NCBI GenBank assembly: GCA_947650285.1
Contig: CANTFL010000089.1
Location: 124,001-188,000, forward strand
Source of the DNA: Hyaloperonospora brassicae
Lineage: Eukaryota > Oomycota > Peronosporomycetes > Peronosporales > Peronosporaceae
DNA: 64,000 nt
Direction of reading: 5' to 3'
In this document: positions 11,345 to 60,879 of the stretch, piece after piece
Position numbering within the stretch: the first letter of the stretch is position 1
Layout of the letters: the number at the start of each line of letters is the position of its first letter
Notes under the pieces: model-generated
Seen by the model: only the letters and a program-made list of their open reading frames with translations
Told to the model about the DNA's origin: nothing
Databases searched by the model: none
Position numbers and translations under genes: made by a program

Positions 11345-14300
11345 ATGCCGCCTATCAGCCTCCCCCCCGATGGGGGTGTGTGTGGGAGCGATAGGCCGCC
11401 ACCGTTTGGGGATCTACACACCCTGTCCAATTTCGGGCAGGCGGACGAGACAGTCAGAGGGCAGTCGACCGGGATCACCCATAGTCTGGATCACGACGCG
11501 AGACGGGCGAGGCGTCAAGCCGTGACTCCAAGGGCAGCTACAGCATCCAGCGCTCCACCCCCTCCGACAGCGGGGTTATCAACGGCTCGGCCGTCGGTCG
11601 CCGACAATAGGCATCATTCTCTCCAGCGATCGACTCCTTCTGCCATGTTCGCCGCTTTGGTAGCGTAAATGAAGGGACACCTGGGCACGGACCACCTTGC
11701 CCCTTGGCTTCTGACGATTAGGAAGCTCTTCCAGGTTAAATTTCGCAAGCTGCCGGTTAATGCAGCTGGACTGCCGACTTCGGAGCTCCGGTTCCCTGGT
11801 TTTAAAGCGTCGGAGGCGTCATGCCTTCTGCGTCGATTCGACCAGGTATTTGTCAAGTGCGCTGGCACATATTCCGACAGGAAAAGGCTCAGTCAAACCC
11901 TTGGTAAGGAGGTTATCTCGACCAAATGGGCTTTCGCGGAGGTGGTTCGGCGTCCGTCCAGTCAACACAAGTGGTCCCACGCCCCAGTGTTAAATCAGTG
12001 GGCGCACGTCGTCCGGCGGGGTGCGGCACCGCCGGAAGTGCTAGGGTCACCCGCTCCCCGGCCTCAATACGAGGACTGTATGTTTGACCCCTCCAAATTG
12101 ACCCCGGCTGCGGTAGAAAATCTAAAGGCATTGTGCGAGCGATGCTCCGCCGTTGGGTCGGCGCTGCAGCTCCGTGCAGGGACCGATGTAGAGTAGCAGA
12201 TAACCTAAGGAATCGTTGAAAAGCTTATCGCCTGTATACGCATTCATCCCTTTCTCATGGAGGTGTTTGACAGCAACGAACGACTGAGATTGTACAGCAC
12301 GATACAGCCGCAGGTTGAAGGCCAACTGGTTCTCCACCTTGGGCGCGATCAAAGAATTCCGATTAGTCGCCAGACGACTTGGGCCATCATGAAGAAGATC
12401 CTCGAATCGGTGGAGCTGGCCAAGGATAATCTGGCCGAATTTCACCACTTTTTTGGTCTGACTAAATACAATCGACTATGACCGATCGACGCGATCGATT
12501 CATTTCTTTTCTTTTCGCAGGCGACATCAGTCCGTCTCAAGCACGTCAGTATTCCTTACCGGGGTCGTGTGTATTCGTTGACCAATGCGCATTTTCCGCA
12601 GAGTAGATCTATGTGGCGAACTCAGCAAGGTCCGACCGATAGGTCGTGACAGCAAAGGGCTGAAAACACAATACTTTTGCAAAAATTGACAAGATTCAAT
12701 GAGATAGGTCGAGTTGCGGCATACCTCAAGTCAAAGATCCCGACTCGTTTTAGGTTCAAAGACCTTGACACGTACTGCCCCGTGTCGCGTATTTCGACTA
12801 CATGGAAGGTTACTTTTCAGCTGACCGGGTGCCCAACATTCCTTCAAGGTCTTGTGCGGATCTTGTGGTTCGGGACTCCGATAGTTGTTCGTCACCCTAC
12901 TGTGGGTCGTCGTCTTCAATGCCTGCAATACGGGGATGTGGGCCACACAGCGGCTCGGTGTGGGTACACCGACGTCCAGTTCAGCGGCCCTGGGGTTTTG
13001 GAAGTTACAGAGCTGGACCTACAAAATGTAGAGGATCTCGCTAATCCGTTTAGCAGCGTCGTTGAGACGCGTCGCATGGCGAGCGAGAGGCTTTTAGTAC
13101 AAGAATCGGAGTCCGCGGCAGCCCAAGCCGCTGTTACTCCCCACGGGGTGACCTCATCTTCTCATACCAAGTGTCAAGATTCCGTTCAAGTGGAGCAGGA
13201 GGGGACAGGTTCAATCTGTACCCCTTCCACTCGTTCAACCACGCTTACACAGTAGGCTCCTACACCGATTACAGGTCAGCCATGGATTACGAAGCCCATG
13301 CGAGGGTCAAAAACGCCAGGAACCCCGTCGTCATCTGTTGAGTCACACGTACCCGTCTCTTCCTGTCTTTTCTCGGTACTGGAGACGGATGTCGACCAGA
13401 GCTCTGGAGCAGGTGGGCACCTCGAGCCGTCATTCCCCGCCGCCGCGGTGTAACCCCGGCCTATAGGTCCGGCTCGCTGGACGCCAGCTGTAACGGGGCA
13501 CCGACGACTACGTACTGGTCAACCAGTACGGAGTTTACTATCACTGATAGTAGTGATGGTCAGTGCCCAGCTAGGTGTAGAACTACACAGAGGAAGGTAG
13601 AACGACTAAGGTGAAAGACTCTAGTCGTAGAAAAAGTAAAACTGTTATTAATATGATTAAGTCCTATAACTCTTGTATCTCTGTTTCTCCTGACTTTATT
13701 ATAATAATGTAACTAAATGTATGATGACGTCTACTCACCACCCATTGCGCGCGTCTAGCAGCGATTGGCGGGTTGATATCATCACGATATCAACCAATAA
13801 GTAGACTCTTCGGTCATTCCAACAATATTACCATGCTTGTGATGCTGTTGAAAGAATACTCAACGTAATATTCTCTATTGTCAATTTATTTTTGAAGACA
13901 ATTTTCATGTAACGGGCTACCCCGTTACACCAGCGAAGGCGTCCCGGCGGAAGGAGGCCTTAGCCAGAGGTACAGCGTCCTTGCAGTCTACGCCCGTGTT
14001 GATGACATTAATGGGTCAAGAACGCGCTAAATGATCGACCCTAGCCAGCACCCTCGGAGCTGGAGCAAAATGTCCACTGTCTCTAGAAGTATGTCCATCA
14101 ATAGACCCGACCGATATCTGCTGCCTGGGGCGTATATTAGAATTAAGGGAACCAGCCACGCCGGCTACCGGTAACTGTATGGCTATGGCAGTGTCGCAGG
14201 CTTTGCTGACGCGGATTGGACGGGGAGCAGTACGGATCAGGAACGCATGACGGCTTCTATTAAACGAGGGATCGAGTTGGCGGGCCTTATCCATTGAGAA

Positions 14301-23600: not shown

Positions 23601-25183
23601 TTAACGTTCGGATGGACGTCGAAATTGCAGATGCTATCTAGACACGACTTTCCGTAATCGATCTGTACCCAGCAGTAGTAAATTGCGTTCGAACAAGGGT
23701 TTTTTGTGAGCTATTGTCCTCGATCTATATCATTCGCATAACCTTACAGAGCTTAGCGGCTTTTACACCCATACCTATCTTTCGAATCATAAAATGATGC
23801 ACTACATAGGTCTCGCGATATATGAAGAGCTATGACCACTTGCACAAGTTTTTGGTATTGCTCGATTCATTTGTAACGCTGACATGATCCGGTTCTTTCC
23901 ATTGGTCAAGATATTATTCTCACAGTACTACGGCTTACTAAGCGTAACCTATCTTGGAATCGCTTTTAAAACGGCCAATATTTTTGACAGCGTCGCCTTT
24001 TTTTTAAGCAGTCATCTCGCTTCGCTAAACTTCCCCTTATACAAGGCCGGTGAAAACGCGGTGTGATAACTATGCCGAAGCCTACATTATTCAACCAACC
24101 TCTTATAATAATCGTCAGGCTCTTGTTGTGTTTACGTGTTGCGCTTCAAGAGAAAGCGTATTGTATTCAGTGGTACAACATTTATCCGATGACGATCAAT
24201 TACAGCATGTGTGTCATTTAAGATCATCAGGTCTCTGTACAGAAAGAGGTTCGTAATCACGCGCAAAAAGACAACCGATAGCCACCACAGAGCTACAAAG
24301 TATGGCTACTAGTACGTTTCTTCAACTTTAAGCCCATCATGATTTGTAGAATACATGGACAACTTGTGTCATCAAGTGCCAGATGTTTGCTAGAACTGCG
24401 TGTGTAGAGGACTTTCGAAGACATGGTTGAAAGACACAAGGCAACACAAGGTAGATCACGCATTCAGCCCGTGATATGAGCTCGTAAGAATACGCTCATG
24501 CGGCTCTGTGTCGACCTTGCGATCAGCGGTATGTCGATATTCATCCTTTATGCGCATGGACTGTGATCCAGGTACGTCGTGCTGACGAACAACGTCAAAA
24601 GACGATGGTCCCGCCAAGCAAACTATTCGCCGGACTGCGATTTATAATCGAATCTGGGCGCTTGTCGAAGGGAAAGCAACATAACGAATCGTTACAGATC
24701 AACGTATGCAATAGATGCAGCAGCCGATTCAAGCCAGCGGGCAGTTATGTAAATAATCGTCACTACTGATGCGGCGAACAGCAATCAGAGTGAAGTAAAA
24801 TGAGAATGATGGGGTTTTGTAAGCGAGGTACAGACGTTCTAGCTTAGGTCCCTTTAACATCGTATATGCGTGTAGCGGCTTGGTTGACGCTGACAATCAC
24901 ATAGGCTATATTCGAGAAGAATCGTCAACCTCTATGACAAGGAAATCACGCGTATTCCACCGTGGACGCCATTGGTTGACATGATGGAGGAGATTGGAGT
25001 CCTTTTGATCGGAAAGAATTGTTATTTTATGGCTTTAGTGGCCACACGTGATAGCGTAAATCGTGGATCGCATAACGATTGATACAGAGCTCCTTTTGCC
25101 ACGAGCTGCAACATGCGTCTACCACAAGGCATCATTAGAAGGATGTAATGTGCGGTAAGCGGAGGTTTGCGTTGACTGGTAGC
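20658..25183. other. Unassigned region with one small tandem repeat
   Basis: There is no credible gene here: open frames are short (112 codons at most) and unlike known families. The only structure seen is the 46-bp tandem repeat at 21095-21196. The region 22.3-24.1 kb is AT-rich. The right end is the GTAGC target site of E1. Confidence 0.55.
21095..21196. repeat. 46-bp tandem repeat, two copies plus 10 bp
   Basis: The unit starts CCTCCGAGACACGTGTCATA at 21095 and again at 21141. A third start (CCTCCGAGAC) at 21187 breaks off after 10 bp. The two full copies look identical, so the duplication is recent. Each holds a GACACGTGTC palindrome. No neighbouring gene gives it a role. Confidence 0.9.
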
Positions 25184-25575
25184 TGTAACGGGGCACACCC
25201 TTGCGTAACTTAACGCAAGGGATTTGGGTGCCCTGACGGACGTACACGTGGCAAGCGAGGAAGCGTAGGTAGGGTAAAAGTAGAACTGTTATATTAATAA
25301 AATTAAGTCTTTAAACTACTGTCTCTTCGTTTGACTTAATTCAATTATACTAATATAACTGCATGTATGGTGACGTCTCGTCACCACTCATTGCGCGCGT
25401 CTTGCGGCGATTGGTGGGTTGATATCATCACGATATCAACCAATGAACAGACCCTTTGGTCGACCCTTCAATATCACCACTTTGGTGATATTGTTTTAAA
25501 GAATATCCTTCTTTATATTCTTTATTGTCACTTTCCTTAAAGTGACAATTTCATGTAACGGGCTGCCCCGTTACA
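25184..25575 (-). repeat. E1 3' LTR (392 bp)
   Basis: It starts TGTAACGGGG and ends CCCCGTTACA on the plus strand. It differs from the partner LTR at a single C/T site near 25234. The LTR contains several strong inverted repeats: CCCTTGCGT/ACGCAAGGG, GGTTGATATC/GATATCAACC, AATATCACC/TGGTGATATT and ATTGTCACTT/AAGTGACAAT. The antisense gene begins 130 bp beyond its inner edge. Confidence 0.96.
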
Positions 25576-25587
25576 TCACCCCCCCTT
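25576..25587 (-). other. E1 polypurine tract
   Basis: On the minus strand the 12 bases directly before the 3' LTR read AAGGGGGGGTGA. This is the usual plus-strand primer site of an LTR retrotransposon. E2 has GGGAGGGGTGA at the same place. Confidence 0.85.
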
Positions 25588-25705
25588 AACTGATAGTCAC
25601 CGTGTGACTCTCAAAGTATGGAGGCCACCCGTTGGCCACCATTGGGACAGGGAGCACTTGTTTGGTCCGTTCCATTCACTTTCCGCTTGACCTCGCATAG
25701 TTAAC

Positions 25706-27310
25706 ATGTCTATGCGAGGTGACTCAAGACCCACACAGCCTGGTGCTGTGCAAGCCTCTGCGGCAGACGCTTCGTCGTCTGCCGCTCCTTCTTCGCCTGC
25801 AGCAACAGGTGCTGCAGGTGCTCGCGGTATCACGCCGCGTGCGCACGATGACCCCGACATTGAGGTCATCTACTCTAGCGAGTCAGACGTGTCTGACTCG
25901 GGCAATGCTCCAGAGGCGTCTCGCTCACCGGCGACGCCTCAGTATTCGCCAAGACCACTGCCGAACGAACGGACTCGTGATTCGCATCACAGTCTGTTCG
26001 GCAGTGATGACGATGATCAGGGTGGTGAGTTCTATTCTTCACCACCGCCGGCTCGTGCGTCTTCGCACGAGCGTGATGACGATGGCGCGAGCCGTCGTCA
26101 ATCTGGGAGCCGTGGTACCGACAAGGGTACCACTGTGAAGCGTGATGAGTTGAAGCCGTGGCGTTTGCCCGAACAACTCATCAATAGCCTGTCTCACGAG
26201 ACAGGCCAACACCATCGAATACCCTTATTCGATGAAACCAAGCTTCACGGCTTGAGTTCCAGCGCGAAGAACTTTCGCGCTGAAGAAGATTTTTATCTCG
26301 ATGTCTTTCTTAGACATCGATGGTACAACAGCAACCAAAAGCGTGACAAAACATCGCTTTTGGCTGCGTGGAACGCATTCGTCCAAAACGTAAAGAATTT
26401 TGGACGAGAAGGGTGGCTCAAGAAACTTGAGGCGACACGCCTCAGGTTCGAACGGCGAACGCCAACCGGTGCTAGGTACCGGTTGCATTGTTTATCTAGT
26501 GAGGCAGGCATTCCTTGCCTCACATGGGGAGACCCTTGTGCGAGTTGTGTTGACAACTCGCAGCGTGCACATAGGGATGTGTACTCCCTAAATTCGCCCT
26601 GGGGAAGGGCACACATCTCGGCTGAGATGCGTGACGCGATTGCAAACTTGCAATCCGTCTACAAGCGCCTAGGGCGCGTATTTACCGATGGGCCACAGGA
26701 CTCATCGGATGGGTCTCGTCATACTGACGGACGAGACCTTCAACATCCATCAACAGCTGAGAGCGGGGCTCCCAGCTGTTCCAAGAGGGTGGATACCCCC
26801 GCCACTGGAAGAGGTAGCTCGTCCTTGATCCTGAATCGTCACGGTGATTCAAGATACGCTCCACTAGAAAGCGTTGATCACCGTGCGCATCCACCAAAGG
26901 ATGTGGTGGAGGAGGAAAGACCTCCTCCAGATGATTCAGTTCACCATCTCGACCCTTACGAGATGGATCGCGCAATCGATGAATTGCGCGATGACTTGAA
27001 GCACGAGCGCGATCGGCGCTACGCTTTGACCGATACCGTGCGGAAGAACCGCAAGGGTCACGAGGCTGATCGGGCGAGGGATCGCGCCGATTATGCCACG
27101 GCGCAGCTTCAGGTCGAGCGGGATGTCCGCTCCCTTTTCGGCGAGCTGGCGACAGCTCGCGGGGAGATAACTCGGTTGAATACCGAGGTATCATATCTGC
27201 GCGACCAGACGGATCGTCTGGAGCGCGAACGCAAGAACTTGATGGATGTTCTTGAACGTGGGAGCTATCTTCATCGGAAGAAGAAGGCTCGTACTGACAG
27301 TACGACCTAA
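25706..27310 (+). CDS. Antisense accessory ORF of E1 (534 aa, coiled coil)
   Basis: The frame starts with ATG at 25706 and is open for 534 residues on the strand opposite gag-pol. Residues 1-140 are Ala/Ser/Asp-rich and disordered, with an acidic patch ([13 protein letters not shown]). Residues about 155-330 form a compact block with LPLFD, FLRHRWY, AWNAF, TGARY and Cys spacing C-x6-C-x2-C ([12 protein letters not shown]). Residues about 410-520 are a charged coiled coil, followed by a basic KKKAR tail. Residues from about 326 on overlap the pol C-terminus and chromodomain (26682-27310). The central block is about half identical to the E2 antisense ORF and lies outside the overlap. The function is unknown; the basic tail and coiled coil would fit a nucleic-acid-binding or regulatory protein. 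Antisense ORFs are known from some plant Gypsy elements. Confidence 0.8.
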
Positions 27311-30300
27311 GCCTGCCCACGTAAAACGTAGGATGCGTGCGCATCCTACGTGGCAATTCGAGTGTGTATGCATTGCCCTTGCGATGCAACACTCGAAATG
27401 GCCCAATGTATTTCGGCAGTAGTTTACTACTGCCGACACTAGTGACTGCATGTCCAGGTAAGTTTACCGTAGGCAGTAGTACTAGGTCGTTAACCTTAAA
27501 TGAAAGAACATTTGCTCTTCCATTCTTGTCTGCGTTCCGTTTCTGACGGTCCACCGCATTTGCGATGGAGTCCTGAACGAAACGGACTACCGCTTCTCGA
27601 TTCAGCAGGAAGTTCTCTGCTGACTCTTTGTTTTGTCTGGCAGTGCGCTTCGTGCGCACTGCTAAGAGATTGCTCTCTTCTTCAGCGAGGTTGTCTTCTT
27701 CCTCGCTGACATAATCGTTGGCGATGCTGAATATACCAGCATCGTCATCATCATCCGAATCAATAATAGCGTCGTCGCTATTATTGAGATGATCTTCTTC
27801 ATCGATGTCGACTTGATCGACATCGGCATCATACGTGACGACGTTTGCGTCGACACGTGATGAGCAAGAGCCAAAACGGTTTTTGCTCGAGCGAGTCCCT
27901 CCCCCCTTATCCAAGAGTCACACTCTATAAGGGTGGGCACTCGTGTATGGCGTAGGCCATTCACGTAAAACGGTGTGTGCTGTGTTGAAGCATGCACCGA
28001 ATTATTGATGGCGAATTCCACCATGGGTAGGAATTCGCTCCAACTCGGAAACGAGTGGACATATCCTCGAAGGATCTCTTCGAGGACACGGTTCGCACGT
28101 TCCGTCTGACCATCTGTTTCAAGATGGTCAGAAGTGGACATCTTCAATCGTGTTCCGAGAGTACGGAACACGGTTTGCCAAAATTCCGCCGTGAACCGAG
28201 GGTCACGGTCGGATACGAGTTCACGGGGTAACCCGTGGAGTCTAAAGACCGTGTCTAGAAAGACACGAGCACAACCTTGAGCCTTGATTGACTCAGGGAC
28301 AGCAGCAAGATGGACCATCTTGCTGAATCGGTCAACAAACACAAGAATACCATTATCCTTGTGAGCGTCTTCGGGCAACCCGAAGACGAAGTCCATTGAA
28401 ACGGATTGCCAGCACTCTGTCGGAACAGGCAGAGGCTGCAATGGCGCACGGGATGAAGGACTAGGCTTCACCCATTGACAAACTTCGCAAGCACGTATGT
28501 ACTTGCGAACAAACTAATACTGGCGGGGCCAGTAAAAGTCACGACTTACCGTGAGGTAAGTCTTTTCTCTCCCACGATGGCCGCTTGTTGGGGCATCGTG
28601 ACACTCATACATGATGCGTAAACGCAAATCATGATGAGCGGGTACGACGACACGAGGCGTGTCGTCGGCAACATCTGTATAGTACAGCAATCCGTTGCGT
28701 GTACTATACCGATCCGATGAGGATCGGTACAAAGCCGGTAAATCCCTCATGGATTTACTGGATAGATTCACCAGATGATCCATCAATCGCAGAAAATCTT
28801 TATCTTCCGCGTATGCCTTTCGTACGTCGTCAAGTTTACTTGACGACGGGACACTGACTGACAGTGTCGCAACAGTAGGCTTATCCTAACTGTTGATTTG
28901 TGCGTCCGGCTCGAAATCGGGCCGGCACGAGAGCGCATCAGCGACGACGTTTAGTCGTCCTGGTTTATACTCCACGGAGAAGTTATACTCCGCGAAGAAA
29001 GACAGCCACCTCGCCATTCTTTGCGAGAGGTGTGGGCTGTTTACGGCCGTGCGTAATGACGCATGGTCCGTGTAGACAACAAACGGTCTATCTCCCAAGA
29101 GATAGACGCGAAACTTAGCCAGTGCGTATTTCATGGCAAGGAGTTCCTTGTCATGCACTGGGTAATTACGCTCAGCTGCTTGCAGCTGACGCGACTGATA
29201 ACAGATGACGCGCTCCGCGCCATCTGCATCGAACTGCATTAACGCACAGCCGATTGCGAAATCGCTGGCGTCACAGACCACATGAAATGGTCTGTCCTGA
29301 TCTGCAATCGCCAAGATTGGCGATTGCATCAAGCTCCGCTTGATACCTTCAAAGGAACGCTGGCACTCAGCGTTCCATGACCACTTGACATTTTTCTTGA
29401 GCAGACAAGAAAGATGAACAGTCATCTCGGCGTAGTTGCGCGAGTACTTGTGCAAGTACGCCGCTAGACCAAGGAACTTCCTTAGTCCCTTGACATCGAC
29501 TGGCACTGGCCAGTCGGTGATCGCCTTGATCTTTTCGGGATCAGGGCGTACGCCGTGTTTACCCACGATGCACCCAAGAAGTGGTATTTCGCTAGCCGCG
29601 AATATACACTTCTTGAGGTTGGCGTACAACTTATACTTGCGTATAAGTTGAAGAACCTGACGAACGTGAGTTCTGTGAACTTCAACGTCCGTCTTTCCGT
29701 CCATATCCCGGCTATGGACGAACACATCGTCGAAGTAACTCGGTGCGAAGTCTCGCACCGGTCTCAACAGATTTGTTACACATCTGTTGAATGTTGCAGG
29801 GGCATTACTCAGCCCCTGTGGCATAACTAGCCACTCCCACAGCATCCCGCTGGGGGTACTTACTGCCGTGAACGGGACGTCCCGTTCACGCATCAGGATC
29901 TGATAGAATCCATCCATCAGATCCATGGACGAAAAGATGGTACTCTTTGACATACCATCTATGATTACGTCCTTCCTCGGTATCGGCTTCTGAGCCGGTA
30001 CCGTTGCAGCATTCAACTTGTTGAATGCGTGCACTATCCGCCACCCTCCTGTGGCCTTTCGCACACAGAAGGTCGGAGAGCTGTGAGGGGATGTTGATTC
30101 CCTCACATGGCCCGCTGCTAAGCGATCGGCAAAGAACTTGTCGATCGCTATCACTTGTTCACGAGGTAGTGGCCACTGCTTCATGACACAGTACTTCGAG
30201 CCCGGTTTGAGCTCGATCTCGTGTCGAGTGCCTTTGTCCTTAGGCAACTCGCAAGGTACGGATTCAGGGAACACATCCCTGAATTCGATCAAATCCTTAT

Positions 30301-31590
30301 ACAAAGAATTTGCCTGAAGTGACTCCCAGGATTGGGACGCGTATCGCTCAATCCGAGTCTTCTCATCGAGGACACTGTCGTCCATCGATGAGCTGCTGAG
30401 AACCCGTTCGTTCTCAGCAAATACTGTTGCCGACCGAATGTCGGTCACATACTCGTCCTCTGTGACGAGTATGCAGATCTGCTTGACTTTGCCACTACGC
30501 AGATCACGCAAGAACCGTTTCGGTTCTAGCGTTGGCAACTGAGTTATCTCCCAAGTCAACTTCGGAGGCACAATCAGATCAAGCGTATAAGCGCCTACGC
30601 TTGATCCGTCATTAACCAAGACGTTCAACGTCTCGGTTTCTTCCTGGGAACTTGCTTCCACAGGTTGCTGAAGGCCTGATCCCTCAGCAAGCAACTCTTG
30701 AGGAATTCCTTCCTCAAGTACGTGGGGACTTATTCCCTCGACGTCTTCCGACTGTGGCTGTGCAACCACAGTCAGGCACCGATCCTCTACGGTCGACTCT
30801 CCAGTCGACCTAGGATTTTCATGTTGCCCCTTGGGGGCAACAGACTTCTTTCTTCTAAGATGCTGACCGCTAGGCATGCATCCATGTCCCGGTCCACTCG
30901 ACTTATTCGAGTGGTGGACCTTCGGCGCAGCCTGTACATCTGTACAGCCGCCGGGAGCTTGCTCCACAGTGTAGTGATCAACTACACTGTGATCTTGTGC
31001 AGTCGTGCTAACGACCGTACCGCAAGTGAGGCCATCGCACTCACTCGCAGAACATCCACACGCTTGTGGACGCTCCAAGATGTTCATCAGATGGCCATCT
31101 GATGAAAAAGCGGCAGGCATCTCCACGGATCGATGCTGCCAGCTCACCCTTGGCTCGTACTTTCTGAGCCAAGGTAATCCCAGGATGACATCAAATTTGT
31201 CATCCAGATCTAGTACGATGAAGTCATCATCGTACTGTTCGCCCTCTAACGTGTAGTGGATTCCTACTACACGTTTCTCAACGGTTATCGATGCGCCTGT
31301 TGCAAGGCGCACCGTCATCCTGGTGAGGGGAATGTCGCGCTCAACGAACTTGAGCCTACGACCCTCTAGTGACTGGCGACGAACAAAGTTGTTCGACGCC
31401 CCACAGTCTACTAGGGCACGAAGCGACAAATCATTTGTCGCTTCCAACTTCAAGGTGATGAGCGAAACGTCATCACCAGGTGCAGAGACACACAATGATT
31501 GTGTATCTGGAGCAACTTTCGTCAAGAGATTTGCAAATTCTCTTGAGGTTGCTGGATCAGTAGGGCACTCCGCCCCTACTGACCCCGACC
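26682..31590 (-). pseudogene. E1 pol: PR, RT, RNase H, integrase, chromodomain
   Basis: The frame is entered by -1 frameshift from gag at 31591-31597. Protease has LVDCGASN and ILGLPWL. Reverse transcriptase has SMDLMDGFYQI, VMPQGLSNAPATF and YFDDVFVHS. RNase H has VVCDASDFAIG and VHDKELLAMKYAL. Integrase has its H-H-C-C finger (HRGREKTY, CEVCQ) and the core motifs SMDFVFGLP, SDRDPRF and RVLEEILR. An Asp/Glu-rich insert follows (27690-27855), then the integrase C-terminal part, then a chromodomain (about 26700-26880: VERILNH, FQWRGYP, WNSWEP). TAG codons stand at 28886-28888 (Glu in E2) and 28514-28516 (Gln in E2), and a T5 run at 27880-27884 has lost one base. As read, it cannot make full Pol unless stops are read through. 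Confidence 0.93.
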
Positions 31591-32730
31591 ATTTTTTGAT
31601 GGTCCGTCTCGCTGTTGCGGCTTCGCAACAGCGCTGGACCCACGCCCATTGCCCTTTCTGGCAAAAGGTCGTCCATTTCGCTCAGTACTGTTTGGCACTG
31701 GGCGTGGAGCACTACACTCGTATGCGTAGTGCCCTAACTTCTGACAGCGATTGCAACTTTGCAATCGCTTGTTGTTTGTAGAGCGAGGTCTCTCGCTCTC
31801 AACATAGCAGAGGTCCATTGGTTCTGGACCTCCGATCTCTTGTCGTCTCGGTGGACGGTAAGAGTTTGAGCTAGCATGAGCCTGTCTCATGCTAAAGTCT
31901 TCCTGTTCCGCGGCTGATATCGCTTCTTCAAGCGTATTCAGCTCAAGGCGGAACAGGTGGCTCCTGACGGGCCCTTTTGCGAGCCCTTGCATGAACACCG
32001 TAATCAACGTGTGTTCTTGAACTGGGTTTGCAGTTATACTACTCGCAAGGAGTCGTATATGTTGTGCGTAAGCGTGCACATCACGCTTACCCTGCTTGAG
32101 TTTCAGGAGCTCTGAACGAGCCCTGAACTCAGCACGTGGCGGCTCAAACGTTTGTCTGAGCCGGGACTTGAAGTCATCTAGCGACCTAAACACATTTGGG
32201 TCGCTACTCTCGAGTCCCAGGGACCAAGTTTTGGCACGCCCTGCCAAGTGGGTCTGAGCAAATGTGAGTTTCATTTGCTCATCTTCGACGCGACGAGCCC
32301 TTAGGGCTCTGTCGAGTTCGACAAACCATAGTAACAGGGAGTCCTCCGGGACTCCACTGTACTTGGAGATGTCAACTTTCATGACTTCGGGACGACGCGC
32401 ATTGCCCGTCCCACCCACAGCAGCATGGAATTGCTGCTGTCTCAACAGCTCCGTCTGTTGAGCACCGAGTTCTCTCAACTGCTCGGCCTGTTGAGAGCCT
32501 TGCTGGTGAAGCAAGGCTACTTTCTCCCTCTCGAGAGCAAGTTCATTCTGAATGAACTTGGCAATAGCGGCATGTTGTTGGTCTCTGTCTAGAGACTCCA
32601 ACATGGTGCTGACGACGAGTTCGCCTACGGTAGAACTCATTCGTTCTACCGCACCCCATTCGATGTCACTCAAATGGGTAAACCCTTCACGCGTGGCGTG
32701 AAAGGTGTCTTCTTCATCCAACATGTTCAT
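31576..32730 (-). CDS. E1 gag (384 aa, CCHC knuckle)
   Basis: An intact frame runs from ATG 32730 to TAG 31576-31578. Residues about 20-100 are a helical Gln/Glu-rich stretch. Residues 115-265 are the retrotransposon Gag capsid-like domain (KVDISKYSGVPEDSLLLWF, LTFAQTHLAGRAKTW, VFMQGL). A zinc knuckle CNRCQKLGHYAYEC lies near residue 333. The last codons include the AAAAAAT slippery site. Gag packages the RNA in cytoplasmic particles. The start codon is inside a perfect hairpin (32715-32738). It is the only intact sense ORF of E1, so this copy could still supply Gag. Confidence 0.92.
   Translation of the reverse strand: MNMLDEEDTFHATREGFTHLSDIEWGAVERMSSTVGELVVSTMLESLDRDQQHAAIAKFIQNELALEREKVALLHQQGSQQAEQLRELGAQQTELLRQQQFHAAVGGTGNARRPEVMKVDISKYSGVPEDSLLLWFVELDRALRARRVEDEQMKLTFAQTHLAGRAKTWSLGLESSDPNVFRSLDDFKSRLRQTFEPPRAEFRARSELLKLKQGKRDVHAYAQHIRLLASSITANPVQEHTLITVFMQGLAKGPVRSHLFRLELNTLEEAISAAEQEDFSMRQAHASSNSYRPPRRQEIGGPEPMDLCYVESERPRSTNNKRLQSCNRCQKLGHYAYECSAPRPVPNSTERNGRPFARKGNGRGSSAVAKPQQRDGPSKNGRGQ
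31591..31597 (-). promoter_or_regulatory. E1 -1 ribosomal frameshift site AAAAAAT
   Basis: In the gag phase the codons read TCA AAA AAT, giving the canonical X-XXY-YYZ heptamer A-AAA-AAT. The gag stop is five codons after this site, and the -1 phase is open straight into the protease. E2 keeps the same heptamer at 54728-54734. Several hairpin-forming inverted repeats follow downstream, as such sites usually need. Confidence 0.85.
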
Positions 32731-32761
32731 GTTGGATGATGTGGTCCTTGGAAGGACTACA

Positions 32762-32772
32762 AAGTGCTACCA
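32762..32772 (-). other. E1 primer-binding site
   Basis: Two bases inside the 5' LTR the minus strand reads TGGTAGCACTT. This begins with the TGG that pairs with tRNA CCA ends. The same 11 bases occur at this position in E2 (53548-53558) and E3 (50132-50142). The tRNA should end AAGTGCTACCA; which one it is was not checked. Confidence 0.85.
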
Positions 32773-32774
32773 GG

Positions 32775-33166
32775 TGTAACGGGGCACACCCTTGCGTAAC
32801 TTAACGCAAGGGATTTGGGTGCCCCGACGGACGTACACGTGGCAAGCGAGGAAGCGTAGGTAGGGTAAAAGTAGAACTGTTATATTAATAAAATTAAGTC
32901 TTTAAACTACTGTCTCTTCGTTTGACTTAATTCAATTATACTAATATAACTGCATGTATGGTGACGTCTCGTCACCACTCATTGCGCGCGTCTTGCGGCG
33001 ATTGGTGGGTTGATATCATCACGATATCAACCAATGAACAGACCCTTTGGTCGACCCTTCAATATCACCACTTTGGTGATATTGTTTTAAAGAATATCCT
33101 TCTTTATATTCTTTATTGTCACTTTCCTTAAAGTGACAATTTCATGTAACGGGCTGCCCCGTTACA
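32775..33166 (-). repeat. E1 5' LTR (392 bp)
   Basis: It is identical to 25184-25575 except for one base. In element orientation it opens with a hairpin, TGTAACGGGG then CCCGTTACA three bases later. The LTR should hold the promoter and polyadenylation signal for E1, but no box was assigned. Confidence 0.96.
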
Positions 33167-36100
33167 GTAGCCTTTCTGGTGCCCTAGTATTGTAAGTGAA
33201 CCCACATTCGTTGCTGCCACAGTTAGGTCACGTGAGCACGTAAGTTACGTGAGCCAAGTACAAGATATAATAAATCATCCATAAGCTCGTCCCAGTCACC
33301 ATGAGTCGCCAAACGCGCCACAAGTAGTAGCATCGGCATAATGCGGCACATGTGCCGTTTTAAACAAGATGAGCCTTTGCTTGAGCTGGCGGCTTCATGT
33401 GTTCAAGAACTTGGAGACCGGCAGGTACTATAGGCGATATATACTCGATGAGTAAGCATGCGTCGATGCAGAACAACATAAAACAGACCCTTGCGGAAAG
33501 TCGAAGCATGCGATAACGTTTGGAATCTTCGTACAGCCAGGATGATTTTCGATGATGCAGCACAAGATGGGTAGCATACATTATAGTAGAGACTGTAAAG
33601 GAGGTACGGAAGATATGCCGTTTTGGCTTTCTTGGAGCTGGATGTAATAATTGTGGCGTGTGCGTGCAACGAGCATTTGTAGTTTTGCGGGCGAGCAAAA
33701 CTTTGGTAGTACACATGAGATCACGAAACCACGCGCCAAATCCTGGTACGTCGTTGCTTCATGTTGACCTGACAGCTCTTGACGATGCCTCACGTTTGCA
33801 GCTTCATCCGTCACTGCCTACATCGTTGTCTGGACTAAATGGTACATTGAATTCAGAGGTCAAATCACTTGCACGCGTGCCAGTTTCGTCTTCGCAATGT
33901 TTAGCCCTGATCTCGGTGTTATCAAGATCGATCACCTACGTACTGGACGCGAGCAAAATACCCTACCGCTTGCTTGTTTAATCACTATACTGTCTCATAA
34001 TGGCCTATGACGGTCCCTGCGGAGTATCCATTTGCTCAACTTATAAGGAAGCAGCTGAGCGTGTTGTGGAGTTGCTAACGACATATTCAGCAATCGACTC
34101 CCGCGCGCTACAAATAAACGTGTAGAGAGCTCTTTAGGATCACAACTTTGACGGGATAGTATCCACAGATATTATGCGGTGTGCCCATCCTAGCGAAGGC
34201 AACGTACTCTATGTTCGGTACCGCTGATACGACGAGGTGTAGTAGATCACTTGCTGCGATCTTGATTACAGAAAAGTAGCTGAATGAAGGTAGTCCGGTA
34301 TATTGCTACACTACCACTCACAGCCGGATACGCGGTTCAAACTAACAAAAAGAGTATCATCCATGAGCAGAGTGCCTTGTGTCCTGAGTCATCTTGTTGT
34401 GATGAGCTGAACGTTATGTCGTCAGCTGAGCATGCCTTGTTTGTTGAGGTGCTAGGTAATTTATGTAGGAGACTTGGTTGTTATGATGCAGAACGCAAAG
34501 TGGTTTGTGCAAGTTTCCACATAATGGTTAACACTCTCGTCTGCTTCCCTGTGTTTAATCAATCAATCGTCTCTTCGCTCGTTCCGAACCTTGTGACAGC
34601 CATTCCTGCTTAATCAATCGCTATGATGAAGTAGCTTATCGTCATTCTGTCGTTAAACCAGGCGTCTTGGCAACAACAATTTGTTCGATAACGATTCCAC
34701 CGGACATCACCCCGACAAGCCACTGGTCACCCGGCTTTTTTCGCAGAAACTTCGTTATCACTGAGAGCGAATTACCTTCATAGTCAGCCATTTTGTAGCA
34801 GGGGCGGTTGAGGTAAACCTAGAAACTTAGGTTGGTGGTGTTTTCCAGCTGTAAATCTGGTACATATCGTAATTTCTAGGAAATAGGATAACTCATTTTT
34901 TTGCATAATTTAGTGATAGACGAATATAACTGCATTTACAGCATGCTTTATATCGGTATTCTATTACTGTCGTAATCTAAACGTTGGTAAATGTGCGAAG
35001 TGTAGTCGCGCATCACGCCATGCTCGATCACAGTCTTCGTCTGCTGTCTATCTCTGTCACGGTAACTTCCCCAGCGATGGCTGCACGATCGATGACGACC
35101 AGACGCTTAAAGGCGTACAGGATGCGATGGCATTGCGCTGCCACGGAGCCATAACGCTATGCGCTGAAGAAATAAGCTTAGCATACAGAGGCAATGGTCT
35201 TATTGCAGCACACTGTTGCTGGGTCCCGTCACTTGATATCTGTGAGAAATGATCGTGGAGTCAGAGGTCCACCTACCCGTGTAACGTTAACCCATCTGGA
35301 TGTTCCGAGCATTGCATCTACGGATGCGGTGAGCATGGCGATGGGGTTACTCGAGATTTGTCATTGTTGTCCTCGCCATGCGTTTTCGTCGAAGCAAGCG
35401 CTTCATGCATTAGTCCGATTGAAGCCAACGTAAGATGGCTGAGACGACAGCAGGCTGGCCTATATCCTGTCCTTCTTTCAAGAACAGATCCATTGTCCCA
35501 CGTAAGAGAGCGTCGATGTAAATAAGTAAGACTGTTTATTTCGGCACGCCACTGCATAACCCCGTTACTATAACGTCGTGCTTTGGAGCGTTTCGATCAG
35601 CTTCGTCTGGCTCCTCGCTGTCTTTCAACCCTTGGCCGATTCTATAGTGGCAATCCGAGCGATACCAATCTACACCACCCTTTCTCTCCTACTTCATTAG
35701 TTGACCGGCATTCATGCTGCTCGTGCGTTCACCACCAGTTGCTTCATGCAACGTGCAGCGTGACATGGACGTCTGCTTTGTAGTCACGCCCGGCGTAGAG
35801 CCTCGGATAGATCCATGTAAAAGTAGACGGTCGTCAAGTGATGTCGGTATTTCAAATGCACGCAAGCGCATTGTGCAGACTTACTTGGCTTTCAGCTTAC
35901 CGCTAAGCTGCTTTGCGTCACACTCCTGGCAGTGGCTTCGCCGGTACAGCCGTGTTGCTCATCAATAGTTGGCCGCTTACAGGCGACGTGGGAAATGACG
36001 TGTGCACGGGTGCTCGATACTTAAGCGTAGGTTCTTAACGATCATAATGAATGATTCCGGTCAGCCATAACATGGCTTGATACATCCGACGCGTCTTAAG

Positions 36101-42366: not shown

Positions 42367-43035
42367 TGACATGTGTAGGTGTTAAATCATGCTACCATTG
42401 GAGTGCCAACTCGATGCGTGATTTTCTAATCTGTAGAGGCAGAAGGACGCGCCATCACTAAACCAACAGGAATGGCAGTAAAAGTTGCAAGTGTGCAAAA
42501 CATTTGTTTGAGTCGGCTTTTTCAGCTGCTAAACACACCGTGACGTACGTACCGGCAGACCGCTTGCAGTGACAGATATGCCAAATAATCGAGAAATAGA
42601 TTCGCAAAACCAGAAGTCCCATTATGACACCCTTTCGACCGATGCGTCTTACAAAGAGTTGTCGTCTGACGTTCTTCAGCATTGCTGCGCTGACTAATGT
42701 TCTGTCTTGTTGACGAAAATAGTGCAGGAGTAAGCGAATGAGCTAATTACATGCATAGGGGTGGCGCATTCACAGGAGCTGCTGTGAGTTGATACGTCAA
42801 ATGATACAAAGAACCCGATTGGTATCATACACGACTATCGCTCGTAATGTAAAGTTGCGCCCGATGTCAGATCGTGGTTCACTTCTTGATTTGATCGTGA
42901 TCGGTGATTGACAGCCCAGGCACACCGCACAAACCTATTAAACGGTGACGTTCGCGCGCCAACGCCTTTTTGGACATTTGCTAAGTTAATCTTCCTTACG
43001 TCTGCCTTTTGATGAGGCTCAATTGAGAAAGAAAA
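42367..43035. other. Spacer between CPOX and E3
   Basis: These 669 bp hold the CPOX 3' end and the target site of E3. No gene or RNA was recognised. The last five bases, GAAAA, are the left target duplication of E3. Confidence 0.6.
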
Positions 43036-43521
43036 TGTAGCGGAGCTACACAGCTCCTTAAGTCAGAGGAAGACTTAACGCTCTCACGAGCAACTTTGGT
43101 TCACAGAACCCGACTCAGAGAGTCAATAGCTCAGAGAGCTAACGGTCCCCGTTCCAGAGGGACCAAACGATTCAAACGAATCACAGCACAGAGTGCTCGA
43201 GGACAAGCTACCTTTACAGGCGTTGCTTTTGTCCTCCCGATCAAAGACGCCTCGTAAGGCACGTGTCTCTTATTGATCAAAAGGGGAACTGAATTTTATT
43301 TCTTCTTTAAACCTAAAGAACACCATAGAATAACGTACTTAATCTAGTCACTAAGGTTCAAAGTAAAACCTCTCTAAAGATCTTGTAATCAATTGATGAC
43401 AGACATCAGTCTTCAACAATTGATACACTCACTGTGTTCTAAAATTACTTTATAGGGTACCCCCTCTCTTGTGTGCACCACACCTATCGTCGACTACCAG
43501 TCGACGTAAAACCCCGTTACA
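43036..43521 (-). repeat. E3 3' LTR (486 bp)
   Basis: On the plus strand it starts TGTAGCGGAGCTACA (a palindrome) and ends ACCCCGTTACA. Many short inverted repeats are chained along it: GGTTC/GAACC, GACTC/GAGTC, TAGCTC/GAGCTA, GGTCCC/GGGACC, GATTC/GAATC and GTCGAC/GTCGAC. It is nearly identical to 50145-50630. Confidence 0.95.
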
Positions 43522-43533
43522 CCCTCCCCCACC
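43522..43533 (-). other. E3 polypurine tract
   Basis: The minus strand reads GGTGGGGGAGGG directly before the 3' LTR, the expected plus-strand primer. Confidence 0.85.
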
Positions 43534-43627
43534 AGACTGACGTTACCACAAAACGTCAATCGGTTTCTTTCCTCGAAGAGGTCGGTGTGTGTGCGCTTAA
43601 CCTCACGGTGGCAAAACACGAAACACC

Positions 43628-44941
43628 ATGGCATCGCAACCCAACGAGTCTCGGACTCTTTCCTCCTACCTCGGTCTTAATGAGTATGTGGACTATGGTA
43701 GTGATACCAGTGTCCCTGGAGATGATGGGATATCGTCCCACTCCGCTGTATCTGAGGCTCGACCTCTAACAGCACCGAATCCGTTTGTTAGACGTGGTGT
43801 TACCACAGCGCCAGGGGCGCAGCATCATACAACAGATGTCGATGAGAACATCATCACAAACCCGCTCGACGAGCAACAGGATTTAACCTATCAGCGTGAG
43901 AAGCGTGCTCTACGTCGCACTCATACCCAGACGGTTATTCAAAACCGGAGTGGTTACGTGTTTACAACACCTGACGTGGAGCAACGCCTCCGTCAAACGG
44001 AAGGCCGTAGCCTTTCAACATGGGCCATGGGCCCCGAGGCTACGTCGCCAGAAGATATAGCCGTTCGTCAGGCTCTAAATGAGAGATATCTCAAACCATT
44101 CTTTACCACGCAAGTGAAGTACCGCGCGCATCTTGGGAGCTTGTCTCGTGGTGTCTCGGTTCGACCGATTAAGGGCGTGCCCATCTTGTTGTTCGCTGGC
44201 GAACTGCCCGAGGAGGAGGACAATCAGTTCATCCGTTGGGTGTATCGCAAGCGACACCTTAGCAGTGTGCCAGCGCTGCGGGCCAGCGCCGATGTGGCCG
44301 ACGTTCGGCTGGAACGAAAGCTTTGGTTCTAGTATGCCAAACTTTAGGCCAGGGGCCAGTTGCGTACACGTACGCGTTATGCTCCGGCTACAATGGCAAT
44401 CACGGGTCACGACCCTAAGGTGCGGAGCAACACGCTACCTCCCACCACTATTGGTGAGAAGCGTTCTCGTTCGCAAGGCGACCCTGGTCACGATGTTCAA
44501 AAACATCCACGGCGTAAGGGCAGTCCTGCCAAAGGGGTATCTCATACTCCCACGAGTTCTCCGACTCCGGGTACCCTCGCCACTTCACCAGATACTGGTA
44601 TTGGCCACGACGACGACGTCGCTGAAGGATTTTATCCACATGGAACTGGTGGTTCCCTTGCTCATCGAGCAGCGTCGGTGGCGGTCGGGGTACCGAAGGA
44701 GGAGCATGAGAAGGTGCTCCGTGAGCTGAGTGGTCTCCGAGAGACATTGGGTAAGACCCAGAATAAACTCGGCGCGATGCAAGCCCGTGTTCAGGCGTTG
44801 GAGTTGTCCTTAGCCCGTGTGGATGGTCAGCTTGACCTCCTGGTTGGGATGCAACAGTCGACGTCAAGGCCTTATTTCCAGGCGCAAGCGCCTCCGAGTT
44901 CACATGGGACGGACCCGATACGGCTTTGCAAGCCAACGTAG
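43628..44941 (+). pseudogene. Antisense accessory ORF of E3, two stops
   Basis: An ATG at 43628 in strong context (ACACCATGG), 106 bp inside the LTR, opens 234 codons to TAG at 44330-44332. A second TAG follows at 44345. The same phase is then open to 44941 (about 194 codons). The first part has an acidic N-terminus and a mixed block (RYLKPFFTTQVKYRAHLGSL, VPILLFAGELPEEE). The second has basic, Pro-rich sequence and a C-terminal heptad-like coiled coil (ELSGLRETLGKTQNKLGAMQ). The second part overlaps the chromodomain frame (44448-45023) on the other strand. I see no clear sequence similarity to the E1/E2 antisense proteins, but position, strand, acidic start and terminal coiled coil agree. 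The two stops suggest it is broken unless they are read through. Confidence 0.55.
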
Positions 44942-47900: not shown

Positions 47901-49084
47901 AACATGGCCGGTCATTCCATTGACAAGTGTATATAGTGTATTATTACTATTATCACACCTTAACATCTCGGACGTTTGGCGCTTGACAGTTGCCACCCGA
48001 CGCCGAGATTGTTTCCTCAAAGAAACCTTACGCCTTCTAGAGGCCTGGACAGTAGGGTCCCTGTATTTGCTATCTGCTATAGCACGCTCTATACGAGAGC
48101 TCATGTCTTGGTAGACATCTGGTGAAGTGTTACGTAACTTGAACACTTCAACCAGTGGATTTACACGTACCACTTCACGACCAGCATCCGGGTCTAGCCC
48201 TGTATGCTCTGGCTTATCGCCAACAATGTCATTACCGACATTCAGTGTGGTGCCAACTAGTCCACCCTCACTCGATGGAATTTCTCGTGCCACCTCACTC
48301 ACATCAGAGGAAGTACATTCTTGATGTCTCGGCCCTTGGCCAATCATGCTAATAGCACTCAGTGACTCATTATCACAACGAGTATCACTCAACGGAGTAT
48401 AACTCTCTTCAAATACGTTAGAAGAGCTCCGCTCAACATTCATGTCATAGATATTCGAGTTAATCAACTCCGACATACCAATGTCCAGCACATTGACATC
48501 TTCCGTCAATGGCTCGCGCCAATAGCGCTTTTGTCGCCTAGAGAAGGTGGGTTCATGACTCTCCAAAACTCCACTAGGAACATTGCGCGTTGCGCCTATG
48601 GTCTTAGACCTCCAATCGATCCATGGTTCATGGCGTTCAAGCCAGGCCATGCCTAGGATGAGATCGTATCTCGAATCCAAGTCAAGGACAAAACAGCGTT
48701 CTGTGATATCAAAGTCCATAAAATTCACGCCCAAGTTCAACGGAACTTTAGGCACAGTAACGCGACTACCTGTCGCGAACCGAACAGTGATGGAATCACC
48801 TTCGTGCGTTTCGCGCGCCTCAGCGTATTGCTGACTCCCCTCAAGAGAACGACGTCTAGCATAATTTCATGACGCCCCAGAATCGATTAAGATCGACCAA
48901 TGCTTCTCAAAGCCTTTAACTATCGCCTCGGCGACTAATAAGCCAGGCTTATATCTACGCTCTGTGCTTCCTGGCACGGAGCTCTGTGGGGCTAAGCCCT
49001 TCTTTGCTCTACCTCGTAGAGAAGTGACATAACTCAGTTCTACCCCAGTAGGGTAACCCGCGCCTACTGGGTGTCGACGTTTCC
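44448..49084 (-). pseudogene. E3 pol: PR, RT, RNase H, integrase, chromodomain
   Basis: pol is in the -1 phase relative to gag. The protease active site ILIDSGAS is followed directly by TGA (48867-48869); then YDLILGMAWL. RT has SALDLVDGYYQL, VMPQGLSNAPATF and YFDDIFVHS. A TAA stands at 46731-46733. RNase H has VVCDASDFAIG, with a one-base loss near 46496 just before the codons for LLAMKYAL. Integrase has SGHLGREKTY, CETCQRVK, SMDFMFGLP and SDRDPRF, with TGA at 45637-45639. A phase change near 44950 precedes a chromodomain (VDKILQ, YLVKWRGYP, NSWEYE; about 44500-44660). The multiple breaks make this Pol non-functional. Confidence 0.92.
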
Positions 49085-50086: not shown

Positions 50087-50131
50087 CCTCGCAGAGGGTC
50101 AGTCGTAACGACTCAGGCGTAGATTGACTAC

Positions 50132-50142
50132 AAGTGCTACCA
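50132..50142 (-). other. E3 primer-binding site
   Basis: The minus strand reads TGGTAGCACTT two bases after the 5' LTR, the same 11 bases as in E1 and E2 although the coding parts of E3 are very different. Confidence 0.85.
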
Positions 50143-50144
50143 AG

Positions 50145-53545: not shown

Positions 53546-53547
53546 CG

Positions 53548-53558
53548 TGGTAGCACTT
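53548..53558 (+). other. E2 primer-binding site
   Basis: TGGTAGCACTT lies two bases after the left LTR, identical to E1 and E3. Confidence 0.85.
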
Positions 53559-53596
53559 GGTAGTCCGTCCAGCGATCACAACCACCTTATCCGACA

Positions 53597-60759: not shown

Positions 60760-60879
60760 GCGCTTTAAAGTCGAAATGAGAAGGGAAAGACCAGCAAGTG
60801 CTTCCCGTCCCCAGAGCGACACGACGGTGGACTCTCTGTCACCAGCGAATCAATCACTTACGATAGTGATTGATGATTC

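Follow-up and report, generated by a model that had tools for sequence, protein, structure and literature searches.

Short perfect hairpins along both strands of a clade of Ty3/Gypsy retrotransposons in Hyaloperonospora brassicae

E1, an element of the oomycete Hyaloperonospora brassicae, belongs to a Ty3/Gypsy clade whose synonymous codon positions, noncoding stretches and LTRs are arranged for local folding, with numerous short perfect hairpins on either strand. E1 lies in the window, the 64,000-nt stretch of contig CANTFL010000089.1 analysed here, and contains 101 perfect stems of at least 8 bp (loops of 3-11 nt), against a mean of 1.2 in dinucleotide shuffles (n=20). The structure is very probably under selection. 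The account as a whole, in which a hairpin-bearing clade, selection and concealment from RNA silencing together form a stronger, strand-symmetric retrotransposon counterpart of viral GORS, is somewhat favoured.

Anatomy and hairpin density of E1

The features of E1 are as follows, with domains assigned by Pfam and positions counted within the window.

25179..25183, no strand: target-site duplication GTAGC, left copy, in flanking sequence
25184..33166, minus strand: E1, a Ty3/Gypsy LTR retrotransposon with minus-strand gag-pol, hairpin-dense all along
25184..25575, minus strand: 3' LTR (gag-pol sense), 392 bp, with 20 stems of at least 7 bp per kb
25576..25587, minus strand: probable polypurine tract AAGGGGGGGTGA, adjoining the 3' LTR, called from sequence
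25706..27310, plus strand: antisense ORF, 534 aa, conserved as protein
26682..27914, minus strand: ORF with the SH3-like (integrase) and chromodomain end of pol (SH3_Tf2-1; Chromo, 1.3e-11)
27662..28471, minus strand: integrase core ORF (rve, 2.2e-9)
28886..31525, minus strand: protease-RT-RNase H ORF, 879 aa (RVP_2, RVT_1, RT_RNaseH)
29867..29890, no strand: perfect 24-bp palindrome inside RT, assembled in three single-base steps, as traced by its states in 50 copies
31576..32730, minus strand: gag ORF, 384 aa (Retrotrans_gag, 6.5e-16; Ty3_capsid, 2e-9)
32766..32772, minus strand: probable primer-binding site TGGTAGC, adjoining the 5' LTR, recognised by its letters
32775..33166, minus strand: 5' LTR (gag-pol sense), 392 bp
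33167..33171, no strand: target-site duplication GTAGC, right copy, in flanking sequence

On the minus strand the Pfam domains follow the Ty3/Gypsy order of gag, protease, RT, RNase H and integrase, and the chromodomain located after the integrase is that of chromodomain-bearing Gypsy elements. The LTRs, which are identical at 391/392 positions, the target-site duplication, the putative primer site and the putative polypurine tract give E1 the structure of a Ty3/Gypsy element; TGGTAGC is taken to resemble the primer site of Ty3-type elements. Homologues of the antisense protein number 11, and two carry the name Peronospora matthiolae. The protein has no match in a Pfam scan, and its AlphaFold model (mean pLDDT 60.8), a helical domain followed by a long C-terminal helix, gave no match with E <0.001 in a fold search against the PDB. 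The window has zero matches to Rfam at the gathering score.

With loops of 0-11 nt, E1 holds 104 stems of at least 8 bp (13 per kb), and the window minus E1 and two further elements described below, E2 and Gypsy3, holds 19 in 40,259 nt (0.47 per kb). Codon shuffles that preserve the encoded protein and hold dinucleotide counts within a small tolerance (30 per ORF, stems of at least 8 bp), give a mean of 0.47 stems (maximum 3) for the pol ORF at 28886..31525, which has 31. The corresponding counts are 13 versus 0.47 for gag, 20 versus 0.67 for the antisense ORF, 6 versus 0.40 for part of the integrase and 0 versus 0.10 for each of two host ORFs. Composition or codon usage as the cause of the E1 hairpins is ruled out by the dinucleotide and codon shuffles. 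At 14-20 per kb, stems of at least 7 bp are about equally dense in the LTR, antisense ORF, integrase, pol and gag, and 64/78 hairpins, versus 52 by chance, fall in the two codon registers with the most synonymous freedom. Predicted folding, computed in 200-nt windows, exceeds that of protein-preserving shuffles by 40-47% for pol, gag and the antisense ORF on both strands. In 150-nt windows (n=50) the mean z is -5.44 for the sense and -5.43 for the antisense strand, with 98% of windows below -2 on each. Hairpin span is narrow, mostly 20-29 nt, and stem length is negatively correlated with loop length (r=-0.46), neither of which is predicted by selection on free energy alone.

The hairpin richness of E1 had been claimed in an earlier note, and the shuffle excess and the host-ORF contrast confirm it. 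Two outcomes had been set beforehand as possible refutations: the E1 ORFs proved to lie far above protein-preserving shuffles, and the two unrelated host ORFs checked for equal density have 0 stems each. All 10 of the individual hairpins looked up are present in the window, those with a given position within ~10 nt of it, and the eleven strong stems reported in 26187-26745 are counted as 11 (at least 8 bp, loops of 0-11 nt). The 'about twenty' inverted repeats of the same interval come to 15 (stems of at least 6 bp, loops of 3-11 nt), and a palindrome called near-perfect, near 29875, exists and is in fact perfect. The description of E1 as inverted repeats 'end to end' is overstated, as strict hairpins including their loops occupy 43% of its length and leave 9 gaps of at least 90 nt. 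A repeat 'about every 28 bp' matches the short end of the most frequent distance between hairpin centres, 28-44 nt for stems of at least 7 bp.

Hairpins in related and unrelated elements

The window contains four further relevant features.

54..3995, plus strand: E3, an old relative of E1 and E2, with 65-69% nucleotide identity in matched parts
13489..13932, no strand: hairpin-bearing LTR, 93.5% identical to the B-subfamily LTR
43033..50630, minus strand: Gypsy3, a young element of a sister family, with end repeats 99.6% identical over 489 bp
53255..61168, plus strand: E2, a decayed E1-family copy in opposite orientation, with repeat pairs, used as outgroup

E2 retains 48 stems of at least 8 bp in 53240-61300, about half the number in E1, and the region of the B-like LTR (13500-14000) has 4 versus 0.3 expected. 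The excess is weak in E3 (4 versus 0.9). A hairpin excess is present at 53 loci of the E1 family (30+2+16+5), spread over many contigs, and every copy of the family that was examined shows it. A sister Gypsy family has a milder excess. Gypsy3, the other young Gypsy element of the window, is built of shorter hairpins, with stems of 5-6 bp and a span peak of ~13 nt; its 5-bp stems with a 3-nt loop number 40 versus 4.2 expected. The hairpin trait therefore belongs to a clade of families, with family-specific sizes. That several families, the window's second young Gypsy element among them, share the property at hairpin sizes of their own goes beyond the earlier note.

The E1, L069 and Gypsy3/L070 families have hairpin positions in common no more often than expected by chance, which fits foldedness alone counting and not which bases pair. 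Within the Gypsy3/L070 family, 11/12 hairpin centres are common. A stem-length cap as the mark of a measuring enzyme is unneeded in Gypsy3, where the three- to fourfold fall per bp beyond 5 bp is close to chance extension; the drop is steeper in L070, with 36 stems of six bp and 4 of seven.

A retroelement-wide trait is rejected, as ten RT loci (L041-L050) total only 4 stems of at least 8 bp; of four of these scanned with Pfam, three carry a LINE-type endonuclease domain. Two distant Gypsy loci have 0 (L071) and 1 (L079) stems, and one Copia locus (L080) has 1. Three other Copia loci (L081, L082 and L083) have 7 each, of which 5/7 in both L081 and L083 come from a tandem array of TGACGTCA. Two scans of viral contigs for relatives yielded none.

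Selection on stems and its rivals

The stem/loop rate test takes hairpins defined in the outgroup copy (stems of at least 7 bp) and compares two E1 subfamilies at third codon positions; tests that define hairpins within one of the compared copies are biased to conserved stems. Third-position differences amount to 17/182 in stems (9%), 21/65 in loops (32%) and 249/1070 elsewhere (23%), with p=3.6e-5 for stems versus loops. Together with the protein-preserving shuffles, this slower evolution of stems bears out the earlier description of coding sequence as 'shaped to fold'. Pairs changed on both sides keep Watson-Crick pairing in 9/9 cases for stems of at least 7 bp, 8/8 for at least 8 bp and 12/14 for at least 6 bp. 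Against this, 130 pairs are broken on one side between subfamilies and 26 are compensated. A synonymous drift of 6% would reduce 32 pol hairpins to ~16; subfamily B, diverged from E1 by ~8-26% depending on region, has 76 hairpins versus 89 over the compared pieces. The stem-loop contrast recurs with the shorter hairpins of the Gypsy3 family, where differences number 41/270 and 29/230 in stems versus 32/105 and 25/93 among loop sites; against all non-stem sites, p is 2.8e-4 and 1.6e-5. The contrast weakens or vanishes when L070 supplies the hairpin definitions (p 0.048, 0.10, 0.47), and compensatory changes, looked for in this family, were not seen.

Singletons, which are mostly post-insertion mutations, occur per site at 0.345 in stems, 0.315 in loops and 0.425 elsewhere, so that stems are not spared relative to loops. 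McDonald-Kreitman-type tests in a 1.5-kb region point in the expected direction at third positions, none significantly (p 0.15-0.40), and when every codon position is used, stems compared with the remaining sites give p 1.0. Fixed changes include 4 pair-making and 1 pair-breaking, versus 17 and 164 among singletons (p 6e-4; third positions alone p 0.14, not significant), and this pair-making excess probably rests largely on one palindrome. It is well supported that natural selection on replicating lineages keeps the hairpins, with stems conserved while loops drift, and equally well supported that a lost pair is at times compensated and that new ones are gained base by base.

One rival is that selection acts on the structure of sense genomic RNA only, for Gag packaging, stability, translation control or reverse-transcription pausing and with no silencing link. 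It would account for conserved and compensated stems and for the extreme predicted folding of the E1 sense RNA. LTR elements of this kind also package their own RNA. Such selection predicts that G.U is tolerated far above A.C, whereas damaged pairs, read on the gag-pol strand, are 36 G.U and 41 A.C (41 G.T and 36 A.C on the plus strand), and one-mismatch stems include 24 sense G.U and 23 A.C. With no excess of G.U over A.C where stems are damaged, the constraint looks strand-symmetric. The hairpin density of the antisense gene and LTR equals that of gag, and base and trinucleotide counts reveal no loop motif except A-rich loops, which further speaks against this explanation and leaves it unlikely. 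Among gained pairs on the plus strand, 18 arose from G.T and 10 from A.C. The apparent strand symmetry, a point additional to the earlier note, is unusual for selection on one RNA strand.

Strand symmetry, with G.T not favoured over A.C, also agrees with DNA pairing rules, and hairpins might shield or compact single-stranded minus-strand cDNA while the element is being reverse-transcribed, or work in some other way at the DNA level. No DNA-specific feature was found, however, and the 5-bp hairpins with 3-nt loops of the Gypsy3 family would be weak as DNA, which makes this reading improbable.

Arm-templated (quasipalindrome) correction, or fold-back copying by reverse transcriptase, would make perfect hairpins without selection. 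It had been offered in the earlier note beside selection for structure, and only the latter has found support. The stems are indeed perfect, double changes retain pairing, and all three steps of the 24-bp palindrome were taken in its left arm; yet gained pairs are unbiased by arm (20 left, 19 right), one-arm clusters are absent (of hairpins with multiple changes, 13 are same-arm and 11 mixed) and this longest palindrome arose through single-base intermediates that persist in old copies. Lost pairs lean right (38 right versus 23 left). The process also leads one to expect a neutral-like stem rate, whereas stems evolve at 0.3-0.5 of the loop rate with mostly one-sided changes, and singletons, by contrast, show no sparing of stems relative to loops. 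Arm-templated correction is accordingly very improbable, and template switching as the main cause is rejected on arm balance, mixed-arm changes and the stepwise palindrome. Chance, base composition, codon usage or assembly artefact has practically no standing, being refuted by the shuffle controls and by the excess across the E1-family loci.

Possible function and known counterparts

The gain from the hairpins may be concealment from RNA silencing, which is put forward tentatively as their putative function and is the best fit among functions considered. Sense and antisense RNA locked in local hairpins would anneal poorly, both to one another and to small guide RNAs. Stems of up to ~12 bp would also be too short to make good Dicer substrates. 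With both RNAs folded and stems short, a multicopy element with an antisense ORF could thus remain expressed under silencing. A more specific version is doubtful: strand-symmetric hairpin armour in which both transcripts are folded throughout by Watson-Crick pairs only, at a hairpin size of the family's own, would block sense-antisense and guide-target pairing and let the element multiply under silencing. At guide size, self-folding at -3 kcal/mol or below is seen in 36% of 21-nt E1 windows (sense), versus 23% in one Markov control and 32% in a host gene, a modest difference that lends this guide-sized version weak support. Passages on Phytophthora LTR elements describe small RNAs that match them in both orientations, sense and antisense, with 21 and 25/26 nt as the main sizes (PMC3522703, PMC3804510). 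In view of a passage on infestans (PMC3804510), hairpins could also betray an element.

The closest known phenomenon is the GORS of RNA viruses, for which the cited passages give a folding energy difference of >3% across the genome (PMC3950689) as well as whole-genome folding including coding sequence, consecutive stem-loops, less variable paired sites and pairings unshared among relatives (PMC7642675, PMC3950689). E1 exceeds that energy difference in pol, gag and the antisense ORF on both strands, its folding is spread along the whole element and not confined to discrete places, and pairing positions are poorly conserved between families. GORS is a property of positive-strand RNA virus genomes and E1 is an integrated LTR retrotransposon of an oomycete, so that E1 would work like GORS by analogy and is not classed as a member. 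It differs further in its perfect local hairpins of family-specific size and in being strand-symmetric as far as tested. The 40-47% of the E1 ORFs compares, approximately since windows and shuffles differ, with 23.4% for the highest vertebrate RNA virus genome in these passages, where single 800-nt regions reach 35.8%.

A passage on viroids likewise argues that compact RNA structure protects against silencing (PMC3185485). Viroids are small non-coding circular RNAs, whereas E1 is 8 kb long, has coding capacity and divides its folding among many small hairpins. Chronos and other oomycete Ty3/Gypsy elements share the host group, the Gypsy pol and the chromodomain with E1 (PMC5348765). Chronos has, according to the same source, a second, plant-like RNase H, whereas Pfam finds only the Gypsy RNase H in L069, L070 and the scanned E1 ORFs, which lie on either side of 28472-28885. 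A term search of the main text of PMC5348765 finds no mention of hairpin, inverted repeat or antisense. Among plant Gypsy elements with antisense ORFs, the paper on Retand names such ORFs; the opening of its abstract leaves hairpin architecture unmentioned, and the E1 antisense protein is set apart by its lack of Pfam or fold matches. Among the entries listed by literature searches, none concerned hairpin-built retrotransposons, and GORS together with retrotransposons and RNA structure gave 0 papers.

If the account is true, a mobile element has traded free choice at many synonymous positions for overall folding, at a strength of approximately twice the highest vertebrate RNA virus genome value in the cited passages, and old insertions would be a fossil record of the intermediate steps. 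The synonymous sites of such transposons would not be safely neutral for dating. Hairpin-rich, hairpin-short and hairpin-free Gypsy families coexist in one genome under the same silencing system, so that the purpose of genome-wide RNA structure becomes testable within a single genome.

Hairpin density and coding content of E1

The element E1 is recognized by its LTRs, target duplication and Pfam domains, and an open reading frame overlaps its pol in antisense:

25184-33166, gag-pol on the minus strand: E1, Ty3/Gypsy LTR retrotransposon
25706-27310, plus strand: antisense ORF of 534 aa, overlapping the chromodomain end of E1 pol

The two LTRs are 392 bp each with one differing site (391/392). 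The target duplication is GTAGC, the probable primer site reads TGGTAGC, and E1 also has a G-rich tract. Its host is an oomycete, whose coproporphyrinogen oxidase shares 86% identity with the Hyaloperonospora arabidopsidis enzyme, the top value among the matches listed. Its Pfam domains follow the order gag, protease, RT, RNase H, integrase and chromodomain. The pol of this copy is broken between RNase H and integrase, and open frames of 1339 aa are present in other E1-family copies among the RT-search matches listed. The antisense protein has 11 homologues (two named Peronospora matthiolae) and is conserved at the protein level in other sources; comparison of its predicted fold matched no known fold. 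Gypsy3, the window's second young Gypsy element, also has a plus-strand ORF facing the end of pol (43628-44941). About 290 nt of the E1 protease-RT linker (30664-30955) are missing from four loci (L053, L058, L062 and L066) whose flanks align at 88-94% and 82-85%. Because the RT tree places the linker-lacking L066 among copies of subfamily A, to which E1 belongs, the linker may have moved by recombination.

In E1, perfect stems 8-12 bp long that enclose loops of 3-11 nt number 101, versus 1.2 in dinucleotide shuffles (n=20). Protein-keeping codon shuffles leave 0.4-0.7 such stems, compared with 31 in pol, 13 in gag, 20 in the antisense ORF and 6 in part of the integrase, and the same comparison finds zero in two host ORFs. 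This supports the proposal of the earlier note that coding sequence appears shaped to fold. Hairpin density is similar across the LTR, antisense gene, integrase, pol and gag, and E1 is hairpin-dense throughout; the description of it as built nearly ‘end to end’ of inverted repeats is too strong because strict hairpins cover 43% and leave nine gaps of at least 90 nt. Folding energy on each strand is 40-47% better than in protein-preserving shuffles, with mean z in 150-nt windows of -5.44 (sense) and -5.43 (antisense) versus -0.76 and -0.03 for the two host ORFs. The pairs of 64 of 78 hairpins fall in the two codon registers with the greatest synonymous freedom, compared with 52 by chance.

Spread across copies and families

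The 100.56-Mb assembly (898 contigs) was searched for further copies. All 30 close copies, drawn from the best 40 of 2116 candidates and including E1 itself, carry 29-49 such stems per 3.6 kb, and 16 further family copies (16 of 40 rows of another search) carry 9-27 per 2 kb. Ten stretches of 4 kb taken at fixed coordinates comprise two family copies (52 and 37 stems), one stretch with a family LTR (9 stems) and seven with 0-2 stems; this sample is no gauge of the family's genome share, since the contigs were picked from known carriers.

L069, a sister family with a 1795-aa frame and 65% nucleotide identity, has 19 stems in 3.6 kb versus 0.7, and its relatives L072 and L075 have five and three, each in 2.4 kb, versus 0.2. 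In Gypsy3 and its 87% relative L070, 8-bp stems are scarce and short stems abundant: 5-bp stems with 3-nt loops number 40 versus 4.2 in Gypsy3, and 6-bp stems 42 versus 12 in Gypsy3 and 36 versus 5.2 in L070. Hairpins span about 13 nt in these two elements and about 23-26 nt in E1. The short-hairpin build of Gypsy3 (43033-50630; 5-6 bp stems, about 13-nt span) is not easily spotted by eye. Since no excess is found in L071 and L079 (24-30% identical to E1 in amino-acid sequence), L041-L050 or the Copia locus L080, the trait is a property of families with pol 43-52% identical to that of E1, with hairpin size family-specific. Hairpin centres are not shared between E1 and Gypsy3, L069 or L070 (1, 1 and 2, versus 0.8, 1.1 and 2.4 by shifting); within a family, Gypsy3 shares 11 of 12 with L070.

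Three further features were observed at other loci. On the reverse strand of L070 (585-740), between protease and RT, two hairpins are repeated at a 120-nt distance, a sign of tandem duplication. The Copia copies L081 (537-610) and L083 (111-186) hold a tandem series of TGACGTCA palindromes at intervals of 13-14 nt, which may be a regulatory array. The RT piece (2020-2809) of E3, an old relative of E1, has an inverted copy 29 kb off on the same contig (G000:C41:97072-97861; identity 100%, rounded), and several other matches of that search are inverted same-contig pairs with equal scores (e.g. C801, C150 and C55), representing either large inverted duplications or assembly artefacts.

Probable selection on stems, strand and origin

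Young copies represent both subfamilies: E1 for A (LTRs 391/392), and L067, L058 and L068 for B (L058 terminal branch 0.004). For hairpins of either subfamily, third codon positions differ at 73/545 stem, 52/128 loop and 209/854 other sites. Choosing stems from either compared subfamily is biased, and two controls were therefore run. The observed stem-to-other ratio is 0.55 versus 0.78 (sd 0.11) in neutral simulations of pol, and the stem-to-loop ratio 0.33 versus 0.82 (sd 0.32). When the decayed outgroup copy E2 alone supplies the hairpins, the counts are 17/182, 21/65 and 249/1070, and 9/9 double-changed pairs remain paired (12/14 once 6-bp stems are admitted). A synonymous drift of 6% would halve the pol hairpins; subfamily B still has 76 versus 89 in the compared pieces.

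In the Gypsy3 family the stem-loop contrast recurs for hairpins defined in L084 or L085, which have part of their history in common with Gypsy3, and no compensation is seen. Hairpins defined in L070 give a weak contrast for Gypsy3 versus L084 or L085 (p 0.048 and 0.10) and none for L084 versus L085 (p 0.47). Singletons, mostly post-insertion mutations, are no rarer in stems (0.345 per site) than in loops (0.315); a formal test of singletons versus fixed changes on the same 1.5-kb region is not significant. Between A and B, 41% of loop third positions differ versus 25% of other sites, and singletons are not commoner in loops; the loops may be unconstrained or diversifying.

Selection aimed at a single RNA strand would be expected to tolerate G.U, but not A.C, on that strand. 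Of the pairs damaged between A and B, 41 are G.T and 36 A.C (plus strand), and one-mismatch stems in seven sequences comprise 24 sense G.U and 23 A.C. The constraint thus appears strand-symmetric, a pattern that fits both transcripts, or DNA, as the target. In small samples, 18 plus-strand pairs were gained from G.T and 10 from A.C, and pairs were lost through 38 right-arm and 23 left-arm changes.

Arm-templated correction, one cause offered earlier, is not supported: gains are equal on both arms (20 left, 19 right), multiple differences keep to one arm in 13 hairpins and span both in 11, and the 24-bp palindrome at 29867 has a stepwise history. This palindrome has three mismatches, all left-arm, in E2, L058 and L059; two of these are lost in L057, L063 and L038, and one in L056, which has its own right-arm change. 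It is perfect in 32 of 50 copies, and one mismatch is back in four young copies. The hairpins thus appear to have arisen by point mutations on which selection acted, rather than by one arm serving as template for its partner.

Possible concealment from silencing

Two points count against concealment from silencing as the function: folding in guide-sized windows of E1 is only modestly above controls, and inverted repeats can be strong sources of small RNAs (PMC3804510). Selection on free energy alone does not predict the narrow hairpin span of E1 or its negative correlation of stem and loop length. In its favor, published studies report sense and antisense small RNAs matching Phytophthora LTR elements (PMC3522703, PMC3804510), argue for viroid folding as a defence against silencing (PMC3185485) and correlate genome-wide RNA structure of RNA viruses (GORS) with escape from sensing (PMC3950689, PMC7642675). 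The energy difference of E1 is about twice 23.4%, the top value recorded there for a vertebrate RNA virus genome, although window and shuffle methods differ (PMC3950689, PMC7642675). By analogy with these systems, we infer that the E1 hairpins may serve in concealment: folding would hide the element from RNA silencing.
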